Assembly (NCBI GenBank): GCA_009846685.1
Contig: VWVY01000003.1
Location: 372,001-436,000, forward strand
Direction of reading: 5' to 3'
Length of the DNA: 64,000 nucleotides
Origin: Rhizobiales bacterium SYSU XM002
Lineage (GTDB): Bacteria > Pseudomonadota > Alphaproteobacteria > Rhizobiales > Beijerinckiaceae
Part shown: piece after piece, positions 75-39,477 of the stretch
Numbering within the stretch: position 1 is the first letter of the stretch
Layout of the letters: each line of letters starts with the position of its first letter
Translations under genes and position numbers: made by a program
Notes under the pieces: generated by a model
Database searches by the model: none
Told to the model about the DNA's origin: nothing
What the model saw: the letters and a program-made list of their open reading frames with translations, nothing else

Positions 75-293
75 ATGGGAGTCGGACGCCGGATTTGCCA
101 TTTCGTGCCGATAAACTTCGCGTGAGCAAGCGTTTAGCAGGAGGATTGACGAACAAGGGCGGTCCAGCCTATCCATTCCCCCAAGGGGCGGATCGCGAAG
201 GCCCCGTGAGGCGTCAGCCCAACATTCGCGTCCTGTTTGTCTGCCCGCGCGGATTTCTCCCTCGGGCAAGGACGCCATGAAGGGAGGGGTGCC

Positions 294-28676: not shown

Positions 28677-29690
28677 ATGAGCGTCATCCGTGCCGGCGAC
28701 GTTCGCAGGTTCGTCGCGACAGGATGCCGCGAAACGCCACTGATTCTGGTCTTCGGGCCGGACGAAGGTTCGGTCCGCGTTCGCGCCCGCGACATCCGCA
28801 ACACAATCCTCGGTGCGAAGGCCGACGACCTCGCGCGCGTTGATTTCGACGCCGAATCGGTCAATGCCGATCCCGTCCGTCTCCTCGACGAGGCGAATGC
28901 GATTGGCCTCTTCGGCGACAAAAGGGTTATCACCGTCACCAATGCCGGCAAGCTCCGCAAGGAGGCGTGGCAGCCGCTGTTGGACGCCCCTCCGCTCGGA
29001 ACCACCGTTCTTCTTCTGGCTGAGGATCTCTCCAAGTCCGCACCACTGCGGGTGTTCTTCGAGAAAAGCGCGGATGCCGCCGCCATCGCTTGCTACGCGC
29101 CCAGCCATCAGGATATCCTTGAGCTGATCGACATACGGATCCGCGAGGCCGGTGTAACCATTACACCGACCGCCCGATCTTACCTCGCGGAACTGCTGGG
29201 CAGCGATCTTGCTTTGTCGGAGAACGAGATCGACAAGCTCATCCTCTATTGTCAGGACCGGCTTGTCGTCGACGTTGCCGATATCGACGGGCTGATCACC
29301 GATTCATCAAGCTTGGCCGGAACCGACCCCATCGACCTTGCCTTTGAAGGCAAGCTCGAGGAGATCGAACATGTCGCACTCCGGTCGTTTCGGGAAGGAA
29401 TCAATCCCTCAGGGCTGATCCTTCTTGCAATTAATCACGCTATGCTATTGAAAAAACTTGTGAATATAGGGCACGGCTCTCTGGATACGGCCATCAGAAG
29501 CGAAGGTGTTTTTTTCCGGCGAACCGACCGCGTCCGTGCTCAGGTCAATCGCTGGGATAGCGCAATGCTGAACCGTGCCATTGAGACACTCGCCGGTGCC
29601 CAGCTCCAGAGCCGAAAGGTTCCGGCTCTGGAGGAAATCATCGTTGTCCGTGCCCTCTGGAGCCTTGCACTGGCGTCACGCCGTCGATGA
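28677..29690 (+). CDS. holA: DNA polymerase III delta subunit
   Basis: 337 residues with the HolA three-domain layout. A degenerate AAA+ N-domain begins PLILVFGPDEGSVRVRARDIR, with no functional Walker A as expected. A lid then contains LLGSDLALSENEIDKLILY, and a C-terminal clamp-loader collar domain follows. The product opens the beta clamp within the clamp loader. It follows lptE by 9 bp in one unit with leuS. Its 3' end overlaps the convergent parB end by 15 bp. Confidence 0.9.
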   Translation: MSVIRAGDVRRFVATGCRETPLILVFGPDEGSVRVRARDIRNTILGAKADDLARVDFDAESVNADPVRLLDEANAIGLFGDKRVITVTNAGKLRKEAWQPLLDAPPLGTTVLLLAEDLSKSAPLRVFFEKSADAAAIACYAPSHQDILELIDIRIREAGVTITPTARSYLAELLGSDLALSENEIDKLILYCQDRLVVDVADIDGLITDSSSLAGTDPIDLAFEGKLEEIEHVALRSFREGINPSGLILLAINHAMLLKKLVNIGHGSLDTAIRSEGVFFRRTDRVRAQVNRWDSAMLNRAIETLAGAQLQSRKVPALEEIIVVRALWSLALASRRR

Positions 29691-30578
29691 GCCGCTCTGA
29701 GCCAGTCTATGGCTCAAAATCTCCAGTTGCTCCAGGGTCCGGTAGCGGATCTTGACGATACCGCCGCCAGCCCCCTTGTGGTCAATCGACACATCAAGGC
29801 CGAGAACTTCCGATAGTCGCTTTTCGAGCGCGAGCGTATCTGCATCACGCGGTGTCGTCTTCCGCGCCGGTGCAGGCTGGTCGCCCCCTTCGACCTCACG
29901 CTGGGCGATCTTCTCGACGTCGCGCACGGTCAGTCCGTGCTCGACGATCCGCCGAGCCACCATCTCAGGGTCGGCCACCGCCAACAGGGCGCGAGCATGG
30001 CCGGCGGAAAGGGTGCCGGCAACAACCTTCTCCTTCACGGTATCCGGAAGCCGCGCCAGCCGCAGTGTATTGGCGACATGGCTGCGGCTCTTACCCATCA
30101 CCTTGGCGAGATCGCTCTGCGTGTAGGCAAATTGGGCGATCAGGTTTTCATAGCCTCGCGCCTCGTCAATCGGATTGAGATCGGCACGTTGGATATTCTC
30201 GATAATGGCAAATTCAAGCGCCTGACGATCATCAGCCTCGACGATCACGACGGGGACATCGTGGAGACCAGCGCGCTGAGCAGCGCGCCAACGTCGTTCG
30301 CCAGCAACGATCTCGAAAGCATCTACATTACCCGTGACACCCCGCACGATGATCGGCTGGATAATGTCACGCTCCCGAATCGAAGCGGCCAACTCCTCAA
30401 GTTCGGCTTCCGGGAAATTCCGTCGCGGATTCTGCGGGTTGGGGCGCAGAAACTCAATCGGAACCCGCCGTTGAGCGCGGTTGCGCTGTTCGGCCTGAGT
30501 TTCAGAGCCGACATCCCCCAGGAGTGCAGCCAATCCCCGTCCGAGACGCATACGGGGGTTGTTGTTCTCGTCAGCCAT
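29676..30578 (-). CDS. parB: chromosome partitioning protein ParB
   Basis: 300 residues. The N-terminal CTPase domain has the GERRWR motif at 93-98 and the second conserved box ENIQRADLNP at 127-136. The helix-turn-helix for parS (TQSDLAKVMGKSRSHVANTLRL) follows, then a C-terminal dimerization domain. It binds parS sites and slides as a clamp on CTP, driving origin segregation with ParA. It lies 11 bp downstream of parA on the same strand. Two parS sites are found 1.5-3.4 kb upstream (32020 and 33965). The 3' end overlaps convergent holA. Confidence 0.95.
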   Translation of the reverse strand: MADENNNPRMRLGRGLAALLGDVGSETQAEQRNRAQRRVPIEFLRPNPQNPRRNFPEAELEELAASIRERDIIQPIIVRGVTGNVDAFEIVAGERRWRAAQRAGLHDVPVVIVEADDRQALEFAIIENIQRADLNPIDEARGYENLIAQFAYTQSDLAKVMGKSRSHVANTLRLARLPDTVKEKVVAGTLSAGHARALLAVADPEMVARRIVEHGLTVRDVEKIAQREVEGGDQPAPARKTTPRDADTLALEKRLSEVLGLDVSIDHKGAGGGIVKIRYRTLEQLEILSHRLAQSGSSTA

Positions 30579-30589
30579 GATCCCGCTCC

Positions 30590-31378
30590 TTACTCCGCAG
30601 CCTGAAGCAGGCGCTCGCGCTGGATGATCTCAGAAGCAAGCTTGAGATAGGCCTGGCTGCCCGCGCACTTGAGGTCATACAGCAGGACCGGCTTGCCATA
30701 TGACGGTGCCTCGGAAACACGGACATTCCGGGGGATCACCGTCTCGAAAACCTTTGGCCCCAGAAACTGCCGGACATCACGGATCACCTGGCCTGCGAGG
30801 TTGTTACGCGGATCAAACATTGTCAGGACCACGCCCTGAATCTCGAGGGCCGGATTAACCGACGCGCGAACCTGCTCAACAGTCTTGAGCAACTGGCTGA
30901 GCCCTTCCAGCGCAAAGAATTCGCATTGCAGCGGCACAAGAACGCCGTCCGCTGCTGCCATCGCATTGATGGTCAGGAGATTCAGCGACGGGGGGCAATC
31001 GATCAGAATATAGGAATAGGCACCGTCCGGCAGTGCATCGATCGCAGCCTTCAGTCGATGCGTCCGATCGCGCTGCGCAGCCAGCGTGATTTCCGCTCCA
31101 AGAAGATCCATTGTCGCGGGGACGATCGAGACGCGCGGCACATCGGTCGGCACCGCCGCCTCGGCGATCGTCGACTCGGACATGAGAACGTCAAAGGCGG
31201 AAAGCTTGCGGACGCGGCTTTCGATTCCGAGCCCCGTCGAGGCATTTCCCTGCGGATCAAGATCGATCAGCAAAACCCGCTCGCCGATGGCAGCCAGCGC
31301 CGTTCCCAGATTGATAGCGGTTGTCGTCTTTCCAACCCCGCCCTTTTGATTGGCAATGGTTAAAACCCGCGGTTTCAT
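30590..31378 (-). CDS. parA: chromosome partitioning ATPase ParA
   Basis: 262 residues. The deviant Walker A KGGVGKTTT spans Lys12-Thr20, with the signature Lys12; the Walker B-like box is LIDLDPQGNAS, and the ISPPSL-like motif is IDCPPSLNLLTINA. The ATP-dependent DNA-binding surface is not readable by eye. It is encoded upstream of parB with the expected gap. The ATG at 31378 is chosen because the homologous N-terminus begins there; the 19 extra upstream residues are not conserved-looking. It positions ParB-parS complexes on the nucleoid. Confidence 0.95.
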   Translation of the reverse strand: MKPRVLTIANQKGGVGKTTTAINLGTALAAIGERVLLIDLDPQGNASTGLGIESRVRKLSAFDVLMSESTIAEAAVPTDVPRVSIVPATMDLLGAEITLAAQRDRTHRLKAAIDALPDGAYSYILIDCPPSLNLLTINAMAAADGVLVPLQCEFFALEGLSQLLKTVEQVRASVNPALEIQGVVLTMFDPRNNLAGQVIRDVRQFLGPKVFETVIPRNVRVSEAPSYGKPVLLYDLKCAGSQAYLKLASEIIQRERLLQAAE

Positions 31379-31449
31379 CGATCGATCTCGCTTTCTTTTC
31401 CCGAATCGGCTCGATTTTCGAGGTGTCGGGAGCAAGAAAACTGTCGTTT

Positions 31450-32094
31450 TCAGGTTCCGCGAAGGTTGACCTCGATGATTCGCGCCTTCGGATCGGTCAC
31501 GCTCGGGTGGAGCGAGTAAGAGAATTGCCAGTTTCGCAGGGCTTCGGTCAATTCCTCCTGATGGTCACGGCCTTTAGGAAACAGCCCGACAGCGCCGTTT
31601 TTCAACAGGAGATTACTGTAGTCGAGCAATCTATCCAGCGGTGCCAGCGCTCGTGCGGTGACAACCTCGGGCTGTTCGACATGCGGCAGACAATCCTCGA
31701 TGCGAAGCGCATGGACCACGGCGGGGAGGCCAAGTTCTTGCACGACATACCGGAGGAAGGCCGCCTTTTTCTGATTGCTCTCGACCAAGTGGACACGCCC
31801 CGTGCCCCTGTTCTTGACAAGAATCGCGATCACGATCCCGGGCAGCCCTCCGCCGGACCCGAGATCCAGCCAAACCTCGGCTTTCGGTCGTAAAGCGAAA
31901 ACCTGTGCGCTATCGACGATGTGGCGATCCCAGATCTCGGACAGCGTATTCGGCGAGATCAGATTGATCCGGCTTTGCCATTGCCGGAGGAAAGCGACAT
32001 ATCGCTCGAGATCAGACAGCGTTTCACGTGAAACACCAAGCCTTGCAAGCTGGCTCCTTGCTTCCACGCCATGCCCCCTCCCTTCAGGCGACAT
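31450..32094 (-). CDS. rsmG: 16S rRNA (guanine527-N7)-methyltransferase RsmG
   Basis: 214 residues. The SAM-binding Rossmann fold has [17 protein letters not shown], with the acceptor strand [16 protein letters not shown] and later [15 protein letters not shown]. This is the RsmG/GidB family that methylates G527 of 16S rRNA. The start is the ATG at 32094, which overlaps the mnmG end by 11 bp; an in-frame TTG at 32118 is a weaker alternative. A parS site lies inside the coding sequence (32020-32035), encoding V-S-R-E-T. The mnmG-rsmG pair is the usual gidAB arrangement near an origin. Confidence 0.92.
32020..32035. other. parS site inside rsmG (ParB box 1)
   Basis: The 14-bp core GTTTCACGTGAAAC (32021-32034) is flanked to give one mismatch against the 16-bp consensus TGTTTCACGTGAAACA. 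It lies near the 5' end of rsmG, about 6.3 kb from the putative oriC. parS sites inside coding sequence near parAB are well known. ParB should load here. Confidence 0.93.
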
Positions 32095-33964: not shown

Positions 33965-33980
33965 TGTTTCACGTGAAACG
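33965..33980. other. parS site between mnmG and mnmE (ParB box 2)
   Basis: TGTTTCACGTGAAACG matches 15 of 16 bases of the parS consensus, with the perfect 14-bp core at 33966-33979. It lies entirely within the 37-bp gap between the mnmG start and the mnmE stop. About 1.95 kb separates it from the first site and about 4.3 kb from the putative oriC. Confidence 0.95.
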
Positions 33981-36806: not shown

Positions 36807-37232
36807 TCAGAACGGCTTCACGATCACAAAGATGACAATGCCGATCATCAGCAATGTCGGAATCTCGTTCTGGGCTCGGAAAAAACGCTGCGAGTGCGCG
36901 CGTCGGTCTTCGGCAAACTCCCTGAGCCACCGACCTTGCATCTCATGATGCACCGTGAGCAGCACAACAAAGAGCAGCTTCGCGTGCAGCCAACCCCCGC
37001 GGAAGCCAAAACTCGACCAGGCAAGCCACAATCCCGCGATCCAAGCCACGATCATCGCCGGCCGCATAATGTAACGGAACAACCGCCGCTCCATGATCTT
37101 GAAGCGTTCGCTCGTTTCCGAACCCACCGGCTCAACCACATGATAGACGAACAGGCGCGGCAGATAGAGCAATCCCGCCATCCACGAGATGATGGCGATA
37201 ACGTGCAGCGCCTTGATCCAGAGGTCGATCAT
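36807..37232 (-). CDS. hemJ: protoporphyrinogen oxidase HemJ
   Basis: 141 residues with four hydrophobic helices. MIDLWIKALHVIAIISWMAGLLYLPRLFVYH is the typical HemJ N-terminus with its conserved His10 near the start; the central LFRYIMRPAMIVAWIAGLWLA and the later HAKLLFVVLLTVHHEM carry the other family residues. HemJ oxidises protoporphyrinogen IX to protoporphyrin IX in most alphaproteobacteria. The start overlaps the hemE stop by 4 bp (ATGA), and position next to hemE supports the role. Confidence 0.93.
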   Translation of the reverse strand: MIDLWIKALHVIAIISWMAGLLYLPRLFVYHVVEPVGSETSERFKIMERRLFRYIMRPAMIVAWIAGLWLAWSSFGFRGGWLHAKLLFVVLLTVHHEMQGRWLREFAEDRRAHSQRFFRAQNEIPTLLMIGIVIFVIVKPF

Positions 37233-38251
37233 CCCCGCACCTTCTCGACGAGCCGCTCGACATGGGCGATCGACGTTGACGGCAAGATCCCGTGGCCGAG
37301 ATTGAAAATATGTCGCGCTCCTTGCGTGGCATCGAGGATTTCGTCGATCGCCCGATCGAGCGCCGCTCCGCCTGCAACCAGAACCAGTGGATCAAGATTG
37401 CCTTGCGTGACGACATCGACCGAAATCGCCGCGCGCGCTTCACGGAGCCGCGCCGCCGTGTCGAGCCCGATCGCATCCGGTTTTGCCTCCGCAGCAAAAC
37501 GGCCAAATCCGCCACTGATGGCACGCGGGAAAGCGATCACCGGCACCTCGGGGTGGCGCGCCTTCACCCCCCTGATAATGTCCCCAACCGGCTTCTCACA
37601 CCAAGCCCGGAACTCCCCCTCGGGCAAGGGCCCGGCCCAGGAATCGAAAATCTGCACAACCTCGGCTCCGGCTCCAATCTGCGCAACGAGATGTTCGACA
37701 CAAGCCAGCACAAGCTTTTCGATCAGCAGGGCGAAGGCCTCCGGCTCCGCATAAGCGAAGCTCCGCGCCGGTGCCTGATCCGGGGTGCCCCGACCCGCAA
37801 TCATATACGTCGCCAGGGTCCAGGGCGCACCGCAGAAGCCGATCAGCGTTGTCTCGGCAGGTAGTGCCGCGCGCGTACCCCGAAGAGCCTCGTAGACCGG
37901 TTCAAGCTTCGTGCGGTCGATTTCGGCAGGCAGCGCACGAACGGCTTCAACACCCTCTAGGGCATCCAGCCTAGGTCCTTCGCCTTCAACGAACCGAACA
38001 CCCTGCCCCAACGCATCCGGGATCACCAGAATATCCGAAAAGATAATTGCCGCATCGAAGCCGAACCGCCGGATCGGTTGAAGCGTCGCCTCGATCGCGA
38101 GCTCCGGTGTGTAGCAAAAATCGAGGAAGGACTTCGCAGTCGCGCGGATTTCTCGATATTCCGGCAAATACCGACCCGCTTGCCGCATCATCCAGAGTGG
38201 CGGCCGTTTCGGCACTTCGGCCTGACGAAACAATTCGAGGAAGGGCTTCAC
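37229..38251 (-). CDS. hemE: uroporphyrinogen decarboxylase
   Basis: 340 residues from the GTG at 38251 (345 from a TTG at 38266). The UroD signature PPLWMMRQAGRYLPEYREIR is near the start. Later boxes are DAAIIFSDILVIPDALGQGV, LIGFCGAPWTLATYMI, QIFDSWAGPL, NLGHGILPSTS. It decarboxylates uroporphyrinogen III to coproporphyrinogen III. The GTG is favoured because GGAA lies 6 bases upstream. The gene is coupled to hemJ. Upstream lies the putative oriC. Confidence 0.94.
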   Translation of the reverse strand: MKPFLELFRQAEVPKRPPLWMMRQAGRYLPEYREIRATAKSFLDFCYTPELAIEATLQPIRRFGFDAAIIFSDILVIPDALGQGVRFVEGEGPRLDALEGVEAVRALPAEIDRTKLEPVYEALRGTRAALPAETTLIGFCGAPWTLATYMIAGRGTPDQAPARSFAYAEPEAFALLIEKLVLACVEHLVAQIGAGAEVVQIFDSWAGPLPEGEFRAWCEKPVGDIIRGVKARHPEVPVIAFPRAISGGFGRFAAEAKPDAIGLDTAARLREARAAISVDVVTQGNLDPLVLVAGGAALDRAIDEILDATQGARHIFNLGHGILPSTSIAHVERLVEKVRG

Positions 38252-38266
38252 GGCAGTTCCGATCAA

Positions 38267-38631
38267 AATAAAGAGAAAAGATTCTTCTCTTGTCTGTTTT
38301 TATATCTGGAGCCGCTTTTTGTGACATTCGACCCTCATCCACAAGAGGCAAAGACCAATCTCAAATTCGTTTCGGCCTAAATACCAATTAGATCCATCTT
38401 ATCTATTTGATAAAAAATACATTTATCCGCCATGGCGACTATCAGTCGGACAATCCCGCTATTCCCACAATTCACATAGTTAGTCTCCCGCCTGCGCAGG
38501 TGTTGAAAGAACCGGCTGTTTTCTACAGGGCGCCCGTCCGTGAAGGGTAACTCGACCCGAAACACAGCAACCACCCACAGTGACCAACAGGGCTGTGTGC
38601 AACCCGGTTGAAAACCCTTTCTGGCAATGCG
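38267..38631. other. putative chromosomal replication origin region (oriC)
   Basis: This non-coding stretch lies between divergent hemE and the PPSR gene, the conserved location of the origin in Caulobacter and several other alphaproteobacteria. A 49-bp AT-rich tract (38378-38426, about 82% A/T) is the least GC-rich piece seen here. TCATCCACA at 38335-38343 differs from the DnaA box TTATCCACA by one base; TTATCCGCC at 38423-38431 is a weaker candidate. A 10-bp palindrome CCTGCGCAGG is at 38491-38500. No further DnaA boxes, CtrA half-site pairs or IHF sites were confidently seen by eye. Confidence 0.7.
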
Positions 38632-39477
38632 ATGGATCAGCGCATGGGCCGCAATTTCTTCCATCTTCATCTCGTTTCCGACTCGACCGGCGAAACGCTG
38701 ATCACCGTCGCCCGGGCCGCTGCCGCACTCTACTCCGGCCTTTCGCCAATAGAGCATGTCTACCCGTTGGTCCGTTCCGAGCGTCAACTTGACCGGGTGA
38801 TCAGCGAAATCGAAAACGAGCCCGGCATCGTCCTCTATACGATGGTGGACCAACACCTCGCGAAAAAGTTGCAGGCCGCCTGCGAAGAACAAAGCTGTCC
38901 CAGCCTCTCGGTACTTGAACCGGTCCACAATCTCTTCCAGTCCTACCTCGGCGTTGTCACCACGCCCCGCGCCGGTGCGCAACACGTTCTCAATTCCGAT
39001 TACTTCCGCCGCATCGACGCCCTGAACTTCACGATGGTGCACGACGACGGGCAGATGACGGAAAATCTTGATCAGGCCGATATCGTGCTGATCGGCATCA
39101 GCCGGACCTCGAAGACACCAACGAGCATCTATCTTGCCAATCGCGGGATCAAAACAGCGAATATCCCGCTCGTACCGCGTGTTCCGTTACCGGCAAATGT
39201 TCCGCATCTGAAGCATCCGCTCGTGGTGGGACTCGTTGCCTCTCCTGAACGGATCGTCCAGATTCGCCAGAACCGGATGTTGGCGCTGAATGCCAACGAC
39301 AAGGACGCCTCCTACATCGATCGCCGCGCGGTCGCCGAAGAAATCTCCGAAGCGCGCAAACTCTTCGACCGGCACGATTGGCCCGTGATCGATGTCACGC
39401 GACGCTCGATCGAGGAAACCGCTGCCGCGATCATCGATCTTTATCGCTCGCACAAGGCCGCTCAGGAGATTGCGTGA
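38632..39477 (+). CDS. pyruvate, water dikinase regulatory protein (PPSR, DUF299 family)
   Basis: 281 residues, a bifunctional serine/threonine kinase-phosphorylase family. The N-terminus [14 protein letters not shown] and the P-loop [15 protein letters not shown] are diagnostic; the latter is the DUF299 nucleotide site. Members regulate PEP synthase or pyruvate-phosphate dikinase by ADP-dependent phosphorylation. Its target gene is not in the window. The ATG at 38632 is preferred to a TTG at 38608. It is the first gene rightward of the putative origin. Confidence 0.9.

Follow-up and report, generated by a model that had tools for sequence, protein, structure and literature searches.

The non-coding gap between the divergent genes hemE and PPSR is very probably the chromosomal replication origin (oriC), of the hemE/RP001 type, of this Hyphomicrobiales bacterium. 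Gene order, parS sites, a switch in GC skew, and the rank of the gap under a DnaA-box model all support this assignment and bear out an earlier note that had proposed a putative chromosomal origin here. As an origin it is ordinary, given that many relatives initiate replication at this same junction. At the sequence level, the locus exhibits this gene order, the skew switch, an enrichment of box cores, an AT-rich tract, a conserved GANTC element, and the absence of a CtrA box. The assignment would place the origin of the genus, and the accompanying comparison of related loci supplies a view of a CtrA site coming and going at otherwise conserved origins, along with a CcrM-type site whose position in the gap is conserved.

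Gene order and GC skew around the gap

The window, by which we mean the entire 64,000-nucleotide stretch analyzed, corresponds to bases 372001 to 436000 of contig C9 (478983 bp) in a genome of 3.46 Mb and 15 contigs. Leftward from the gap, the minus strand carries hemE, hemJ (UPF0093), rho, mnmE, mnmG, rsmG, parA, and parB. Rightward lie PPSR, maf, aroE, coaE, and dnaQ, followed by secB on the minus strand. This order constitutes the full origin neighborhood of alphaproteobacteria. The earlier note had described a non-coding gap at the hemE/PPSR junction with two parS sites 4 to 6 kb away, and both statements hold: the flanking genes match the expected protein families (Table 1), and the parS pair, for which 100 shuffles gave 0 matches, is 4.3 and 6.2 kb from the gap.

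Table 1. Positions of genes and sequence elements at the predicted origin, numbered from the first letter of the window.
Feature	Position	Strand	Basis or remark
parB + parA	29676..31435	-	PF02195/PF17762 and PF13614
parS	32020..32035	+	One mismatch to typed consensus TGTTTCACGTGAAACA
parS	33965..33980	+	One mismatch to typed consensus TGTTTCACGTGAAACA
hemE	37229..38251	-	PF01208, E 4.1e-110; start GTG 38251
Predicted oriC, non-coding gap between divergent hemE and PPSR	38252..38631		Synteny, skew switch, DnaA-box model rank, hemE-gap-PPSR in 94/110 related loci
AT-rich near-palindrome AAGAGAAAAGATTCTTCTCTT with GANTC site 38280-38284 (GATTC)	38271..38291		352 bp before PPSR start
DnaA box TCATCCACA, strongest in gap	38335..38343	+	Model score 13.5 (trained without the genus)
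49-bp tract, candidate unwinding part	38378..38426		81.6% A/T (40/49), highest 49-bp value of the window
IHF-like site TATCAAATAGATA	38400..38412	-	One mismatch to WATCAANNNNTTR; inside 49-bp tract
Weak DnaA-box-like site	38499..38509	-	Score 7.4
Weak DnaA-box-like site TTTTCTACA	38519..38529	+	Score 5.4
Four weak DnaA-box-like sites before PPSR	38571..38614		Scores 9.9, 7.1, 3.2, 7.2
PPSR (kinase-pyrophosphorylase, RP001/COG1806)	38632..39477	+	PF03618, E 3.2e-90

For comparison, we assembled 110 loci, comprising 30 from the genome set (our own included; 54 of 61 relative genomes have a PPSR match, and two of the 17 genus genomes, G010 and G016, have none) and 80 named loci that are the best of at least 597 confirmed. 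The named relatives are sampled unevenly, with many from Bradyrhizobium, Mesorhizobium, and Rhizobium, and thus the number of loci with a feature does not give the number of events. An additional 40 distant members of the class were picked among the better scores from 80 genomes with a PPSR match, the other 35 of the 115 genomes searched yielding none. Shuffled controls throughout keep single-base composition but not dinucleotides.

The hemE-gap-PPSR arrangement is present in 94 of the 110 loci, a set that includes the best 80 of at least 597 named ones, and hemE is divergent from PPSR and within 1.2 kb of it in 37 of the 40 distant class members. The nearest named relatives of PPSR among the matches listed include those from Alsobacter, Microvirga, Methylobacterium, and Enterovirga (67-69% identity), which places the organism in Hyphomicrobiales and probably in Beijerinckiaceae as GTDB defines that family. 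The remaining 16 of the 110 loci have hemJ, not hemE, adjoining the gap (no hemE was found), with the hemJ start 404-515 bp from PPSR. In these loci, which come from a Bradyrhizobium/Rhodopseudomonas-like clade plus three further genomes (L104-L110, L114-L116, L119, L137, L141, L032, L093, and L097), hemE is gone from the origin junction while an origin-like gap is kept.

GC skew on contig C9 is negative in 25 of the 26 10-kb bins between 150 and 410 kb, and from 410 kb onward five of seven bins are positive, with the two nearest the gap slightly negative. The change point from a two-mean fit falls at 414 kb (bootstrap 5-95%, 404-428 kb), compared to 410252-410631 for the gap, and cumulative skew reaches its minimum at 414080 (window 42080), inside dnaQ. 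The sign change is therefore located at the gap with a resolution of about -7 to +18 kb, as judged from one contig of 15 rather than from a complete-genome curve, and the origin proposed in the earlier note withstands this check. In the family member G025, whose chromosome is a single contig, 20 stretches were sampled. One side is negative in 10 of 10 stretches and the other is positive in 9 of 10, with the switch falling between the stretches at 680-700 kb and 704-724 kb (PPSR is at 702.6-703.4 kb) and the opposite switch, at a distance of about half the chromosome, between 2.8 and 3.1 Mb. Data from the genus member G002 are noisier: nine of 12 stretches before the junction are negative, the next five are positive, and the last three of eight are negative again.

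The chromosomal oriC of Sinorhizobium meliloti has the same gene order and junction. According to published accounts, Caulobacter and Rickettsia have their origins at the hemE/PPSR junction (PMC1914354). The Caulobacter crescentus origin (Cori), as described, has in common with the present gap the hemE/COG1806 junction, an AT-rich part, few and weak DnaA boxes, and parS within 8 kb, and its IHF site may have a counterpart in the IHF-like site here (PMC1914354, PMC4468827). Likeness by description extends to the oriC of Methylocystis sp. SC2, an Ori-Finder prediction with three boxes and a GC content 10% below that of the chromosome, which is reported to lie away from all dnaA genes of that organism; the predicted region measures 1063 bp, unlike the gap examined here (PMC3794950).

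No Rfam family is represented in the gap, and both matches from the Rfam search fall outside it. A chrB-a cis-regulatory RNA (RF03078) is found at window positions 180-279 on the plus strand, with 55.7 bits compared to a gathering score of 43.9.

A GANTC element and its possible roles

Of the 110 loci (the best 80 of at least 597 named ones included), 99 have a GANTC site between 270 and 400 bp ahead of PPSR, compared to a mean of 42.1 and a maximum of 61 in 200 shuffles. The longer motif AGANTCT is found in this same zone in 67 of the 110 loci (shuffles: mean 3.2, maximum 9), and GA.TC has the largest excess among the 16 NN.NN palindromes tested there. Across the 15 genus gaps, AGANTCT appears six times at -350 to -400. 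The signal is weaker among the distant class members, where AGANTCT is present in 14 of 40 loci, with 17 matches in 600 bp versus about four expected. Our genome encodes CtrA, GcrA, and a RAMA-domain (CcrM-like) protein. In the open-access literature consulted, we found no description of GANTC or CtrA sites at the origins of Hyphomicrobiales.

One possibility is that the element belongs to a hemE promoter of the CcrM/GcrA type and is unrelated to replication, which would be compatible with the gap serving as an origin and is therefore weighed separately from the alternatives to that assignment. The element precedes the start of hemE by about 30 bp, and GANTC in promoters is described as a known CcrM/GcrA device (PMC3973325, PMC8116508). 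However, the 16 loci in which hemJ adjoins the gap retain GANTC 270-400 bp before PPSR in every case and AGANTCT in 13 (shuffle means 6.2 and 0.4, respectively). This retention suggests that the element is tied to the gap rather than to hemE, although 13 of these loci form one Bradyrhizobium-like clade, and thus the independent losses of hemE number at most about four. A role purely as a hemE promoter element is disfavored by these loci, and we consider it unlikely, if still deserving of some weight.

What part a gap-bound GANTC element might play in replication can be judged from precedents in other genera. GANTC sites are known at Caulobacter origins, where deletion of ccrM is reported to leave the control of initiation intact (PMC3973325). 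For Agrobacterium, depletion or excess of CcrM is described as affecting ori2, and not detectably ori1 (PMC11514494). Given these two precedents, any role that the element may have in initiation is not likely to be essential.

DnaA boxes, AT-rich parts, and the placement of the origin

Only one box in the gap is within one mismatch of the E. coli-type consensus TTATCCACA. This is the one-mismatch box at 38335 listed in the earlier note, and its presence is secure. Inspection of the genus alignment by eye shows TCCACA at the corresponding position in 13 of the 15 gaps. The significance of the box alone does not hold up, because the window contains six one-mismatch boxes compared to 3.45 expected, a number reached by 12 of 100 shuffles. 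Cori G-boxes carry a T to G change at position 2. The box examined here has a T to C change at its position 2, whereas the G-boxes are described with T to G (PMC4468827). The second, weaker box that had been suggested, TTATCCGCC at 38423-38431, was dropped because the genus alignment shows no conservation of it.

The earlier note also regarded sparse DnaA boxes as unusual, but the comparison with relatives reverses this view. Among the 94 hemE-PPSR gaps, boxes within one mismatch of TTATCCACA number zero in 14, one in 33, two in 24, and three or more in 23. Thus, 47 of 94 gaps have at most one such box, and sparseness is the rule, not the exception. The core TCCACA is nevertheless present in 93 of the 94 gaps (which include loci from the best 80 of at least 597 named), versus 17.7 expected from shuffles.

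A box model was trained on 361 sites from 79 gaps outside the genus, which are homologous to the tested gap and so provide a test that is not fully independent. The model finds seven sites with a score of at least 3 in the gap. When 400-bp segments over 329 kb of C9 are ranked, the first (56.3) starts inside the gap and reaches into PPSR. The segment over the gap itself scores 50.5, and the next unrelated segment scores 47.6, indicating a DnaA-box cluster above background at the gap by a small margin. Several of the weak sites in our gap have other forms elsewhere in the genus. Some members carry TTTTCCACA or TTTCCCACA at the place of the site at 38519, and several have TTATCCA...CTTGACAACAG..CTGTGG at the place of the four sites nearest PPSR. 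A block like CTTGACAACAG..CTGTGG..AAGTC before PPSR is conserved in many genus members and degenerate in the genome from which the window is taken.

By composition, the locus is raised in AT, and the gap ranks among the highest 0.45% of 400-bp segments. The 49-bp stretch of about 82% A/T mentioned previously, for which no place was given, is best matched by the tract at 38378-38426, one of two places with this A/T level in 329 kb of the contig. Measured from PPSR, the location of this tract coincides with that of the CtrA box in relatives. The averaged AT profile rises twice ahead of PPSR, at about -380 to -320 and again at about -240 to -200. Furthermore, the best IHF match is on the minus strand, 140-151 bp into the gap, in eight of the 15 genus gaps (0-2 mismatches, with two having two), and the mean best mismatch over all 15 is 1.4, compared to 2.0 for shuffled sequences. 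Two 10-bp palindromes are present in the gap (38428-38437 and 38491-38500), but at least one arises in 156 of 500 shuffles, and we discarded the proposal that such a palindrome is an origin signal.

These features can be assembled into a scheme for initiation. DnaA, whose gene is on another contig, would bind the box at 38335 and also, cooperatively, the row of weak boxes toward PPSR, possibly with bending of the AT-rich middle by IHF. Either the AT-rich part at about 38271-38310 or that at 38378-38426 would then melt and the helicase would be loaded, after which ParB on the two parS sites would segregate the new origins. Within this scheme, we infer the binding of each protein, the part that melts, and any effect of methylation.

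It might be argued that the gap is solely a divergent promoter region for hemE and PPSR and that the origin is elsewhere nearby, for example near parS/mnmG or in PPSR-maf. Two divergent genes do require promoters in the gap, the skew leaves a range of about -7 to +18 kb for the switch, and the best 400-bp box segment extends into PPSR. However, the box cores and the GANTC element hold their positions before PPSR even without hemE, and a scan for one promoter type found no sigma-70-like promoters at 38200-38700. The S. meliloti origin has reportedly been mapped likewise to the hemE/PPSR junction. The mapped Caulobacter origin, as described, is at this same junction (PMC1914354). We therefore judge it very unlikely that the gap contains promoters only. 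There is scarcely any chance that the origin is instead next to dnaA on contig C11, an arrangement known from many other bacteria. A dnaN-like frame (named by eye) does accompany dnaA there, but the box cluster that the earlier note had named as possible counterevidence does not rise above background (the best segment in 20 kb around dnaA scores 38.9, below both the gap and the best unrelated segment of C9), and the skew lacks a clean switch in nine sampled C11 stretches.

A second, short coding stretch with the C-terminal DNA-binding domain of DnaA is present in G000 on contig C8 (247312-247479; L002). Its open frame has 154 aa, and the domain match scores 41.1 bits, over the Pfam cut-off.

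CtrA boxes in relatives and in the genus

Perfect TTAA-N7-TTAA matches within 460 bp before PPSR occur in 25 of the 110 loci (including the best 80 of at least 597 named ones), compared to 0.72 expected and a maximum of three in 50 shuffles. These candidate CtrA boxes are sequence matches, and 19 of the 25 are at -195 to -263 from PPSR. Among hemE gaps, a box is present in nine of 14 other genome-set relatives and 14 of 65 named loci, versus none of the 15 genus gaps. Boxes are also found in seven of the 40 distant class members, where about 0.8 are expected.

With one mismatch allowed, two of the 15 genus gaps have a match. TTAA itself appears nine times in these gaps compared to 17.1 expected, and our own gap has no TTAA at all. 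Cori is described as having five CtrA sites, in contrast to our gap and the other 14 of the genus, all of which lack TTAA-N7-TTAA. By this measure, the genus origins are not of the CtrA-controlled Cori subtype.

The absence of the box has a defined place on the PPSR tree. The genus and a sister genus represented by one locus (L018) make up 16 rows without a box, and these are located within a 38-row clade whose other 22 rows include 16 with a box. Because the box-free rows are nested in a box-bearing clade, loss is the simplest reading. Over the 110-row tree, however, the box needs 15 changes and is thus labile, such that its absence from one genus is unremarkable alone. The S. meliloti origin is likewise described as having no CtrA motif although CtrA is present (PMC4433202), but the absence examined herein differs in being nested in a clade where most other rows carry the box.

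All 17 genus genomes searched encode CtrA itself, at 81% identity to the Caulobacter protein, and the proteins of G000 and G025 are nearly the same in their DNA-binding halves. Genome-wide searches used the strict pattern TTAAC-N6-TTAAC, for which a palindromic site matched on both strands is counted as two hits. G025 has four hits, G036 nine, and G034 11, with one at the origin in each; G000 has 11, none at the origin. Relative to a control pattern, hits are more frequent in G000 (11 vs 1) and hardly above control in G008 (4 vs 2), and the genus members G002 (2 vs 4) and G014 (5 vs 7) exhibit no enrichment.

We speculate that the GANTC-centered, AT-rich AGANTCT element, with its near-fixed spacing, acts in Hyphomicrobiales as a methylation switch at the origin, whose CcrM-timed state (full, hemi- or unmethylated) gates melting by DnaA. 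In the genus, this switch would replace direct repression by CtrA, the box at about -230 having been lost on the branch to the genus and its sister genus while CtrA remained unchanged. This proposal is a long shot, and we offer it with little confidence.

A 2015 review limits the CtrA sites observed in origins to Caulobacters and possibly Rickettsia (PMC4468827). Brucella CtrA is reported not to bind the origin (PMC2877005), and in Hyphomonas CtrA is reported to bind beside it (PMC7200025). The perfect CtrA-type boxes before PPSR have a wider spread than this review states (PMC4468827), being present in L019, L021-L024, L027, L028, L030, L031, L093-L095, L097-L100, L102, and L112, and further in L117, L122, L124, L136, L139, L162, and L169.
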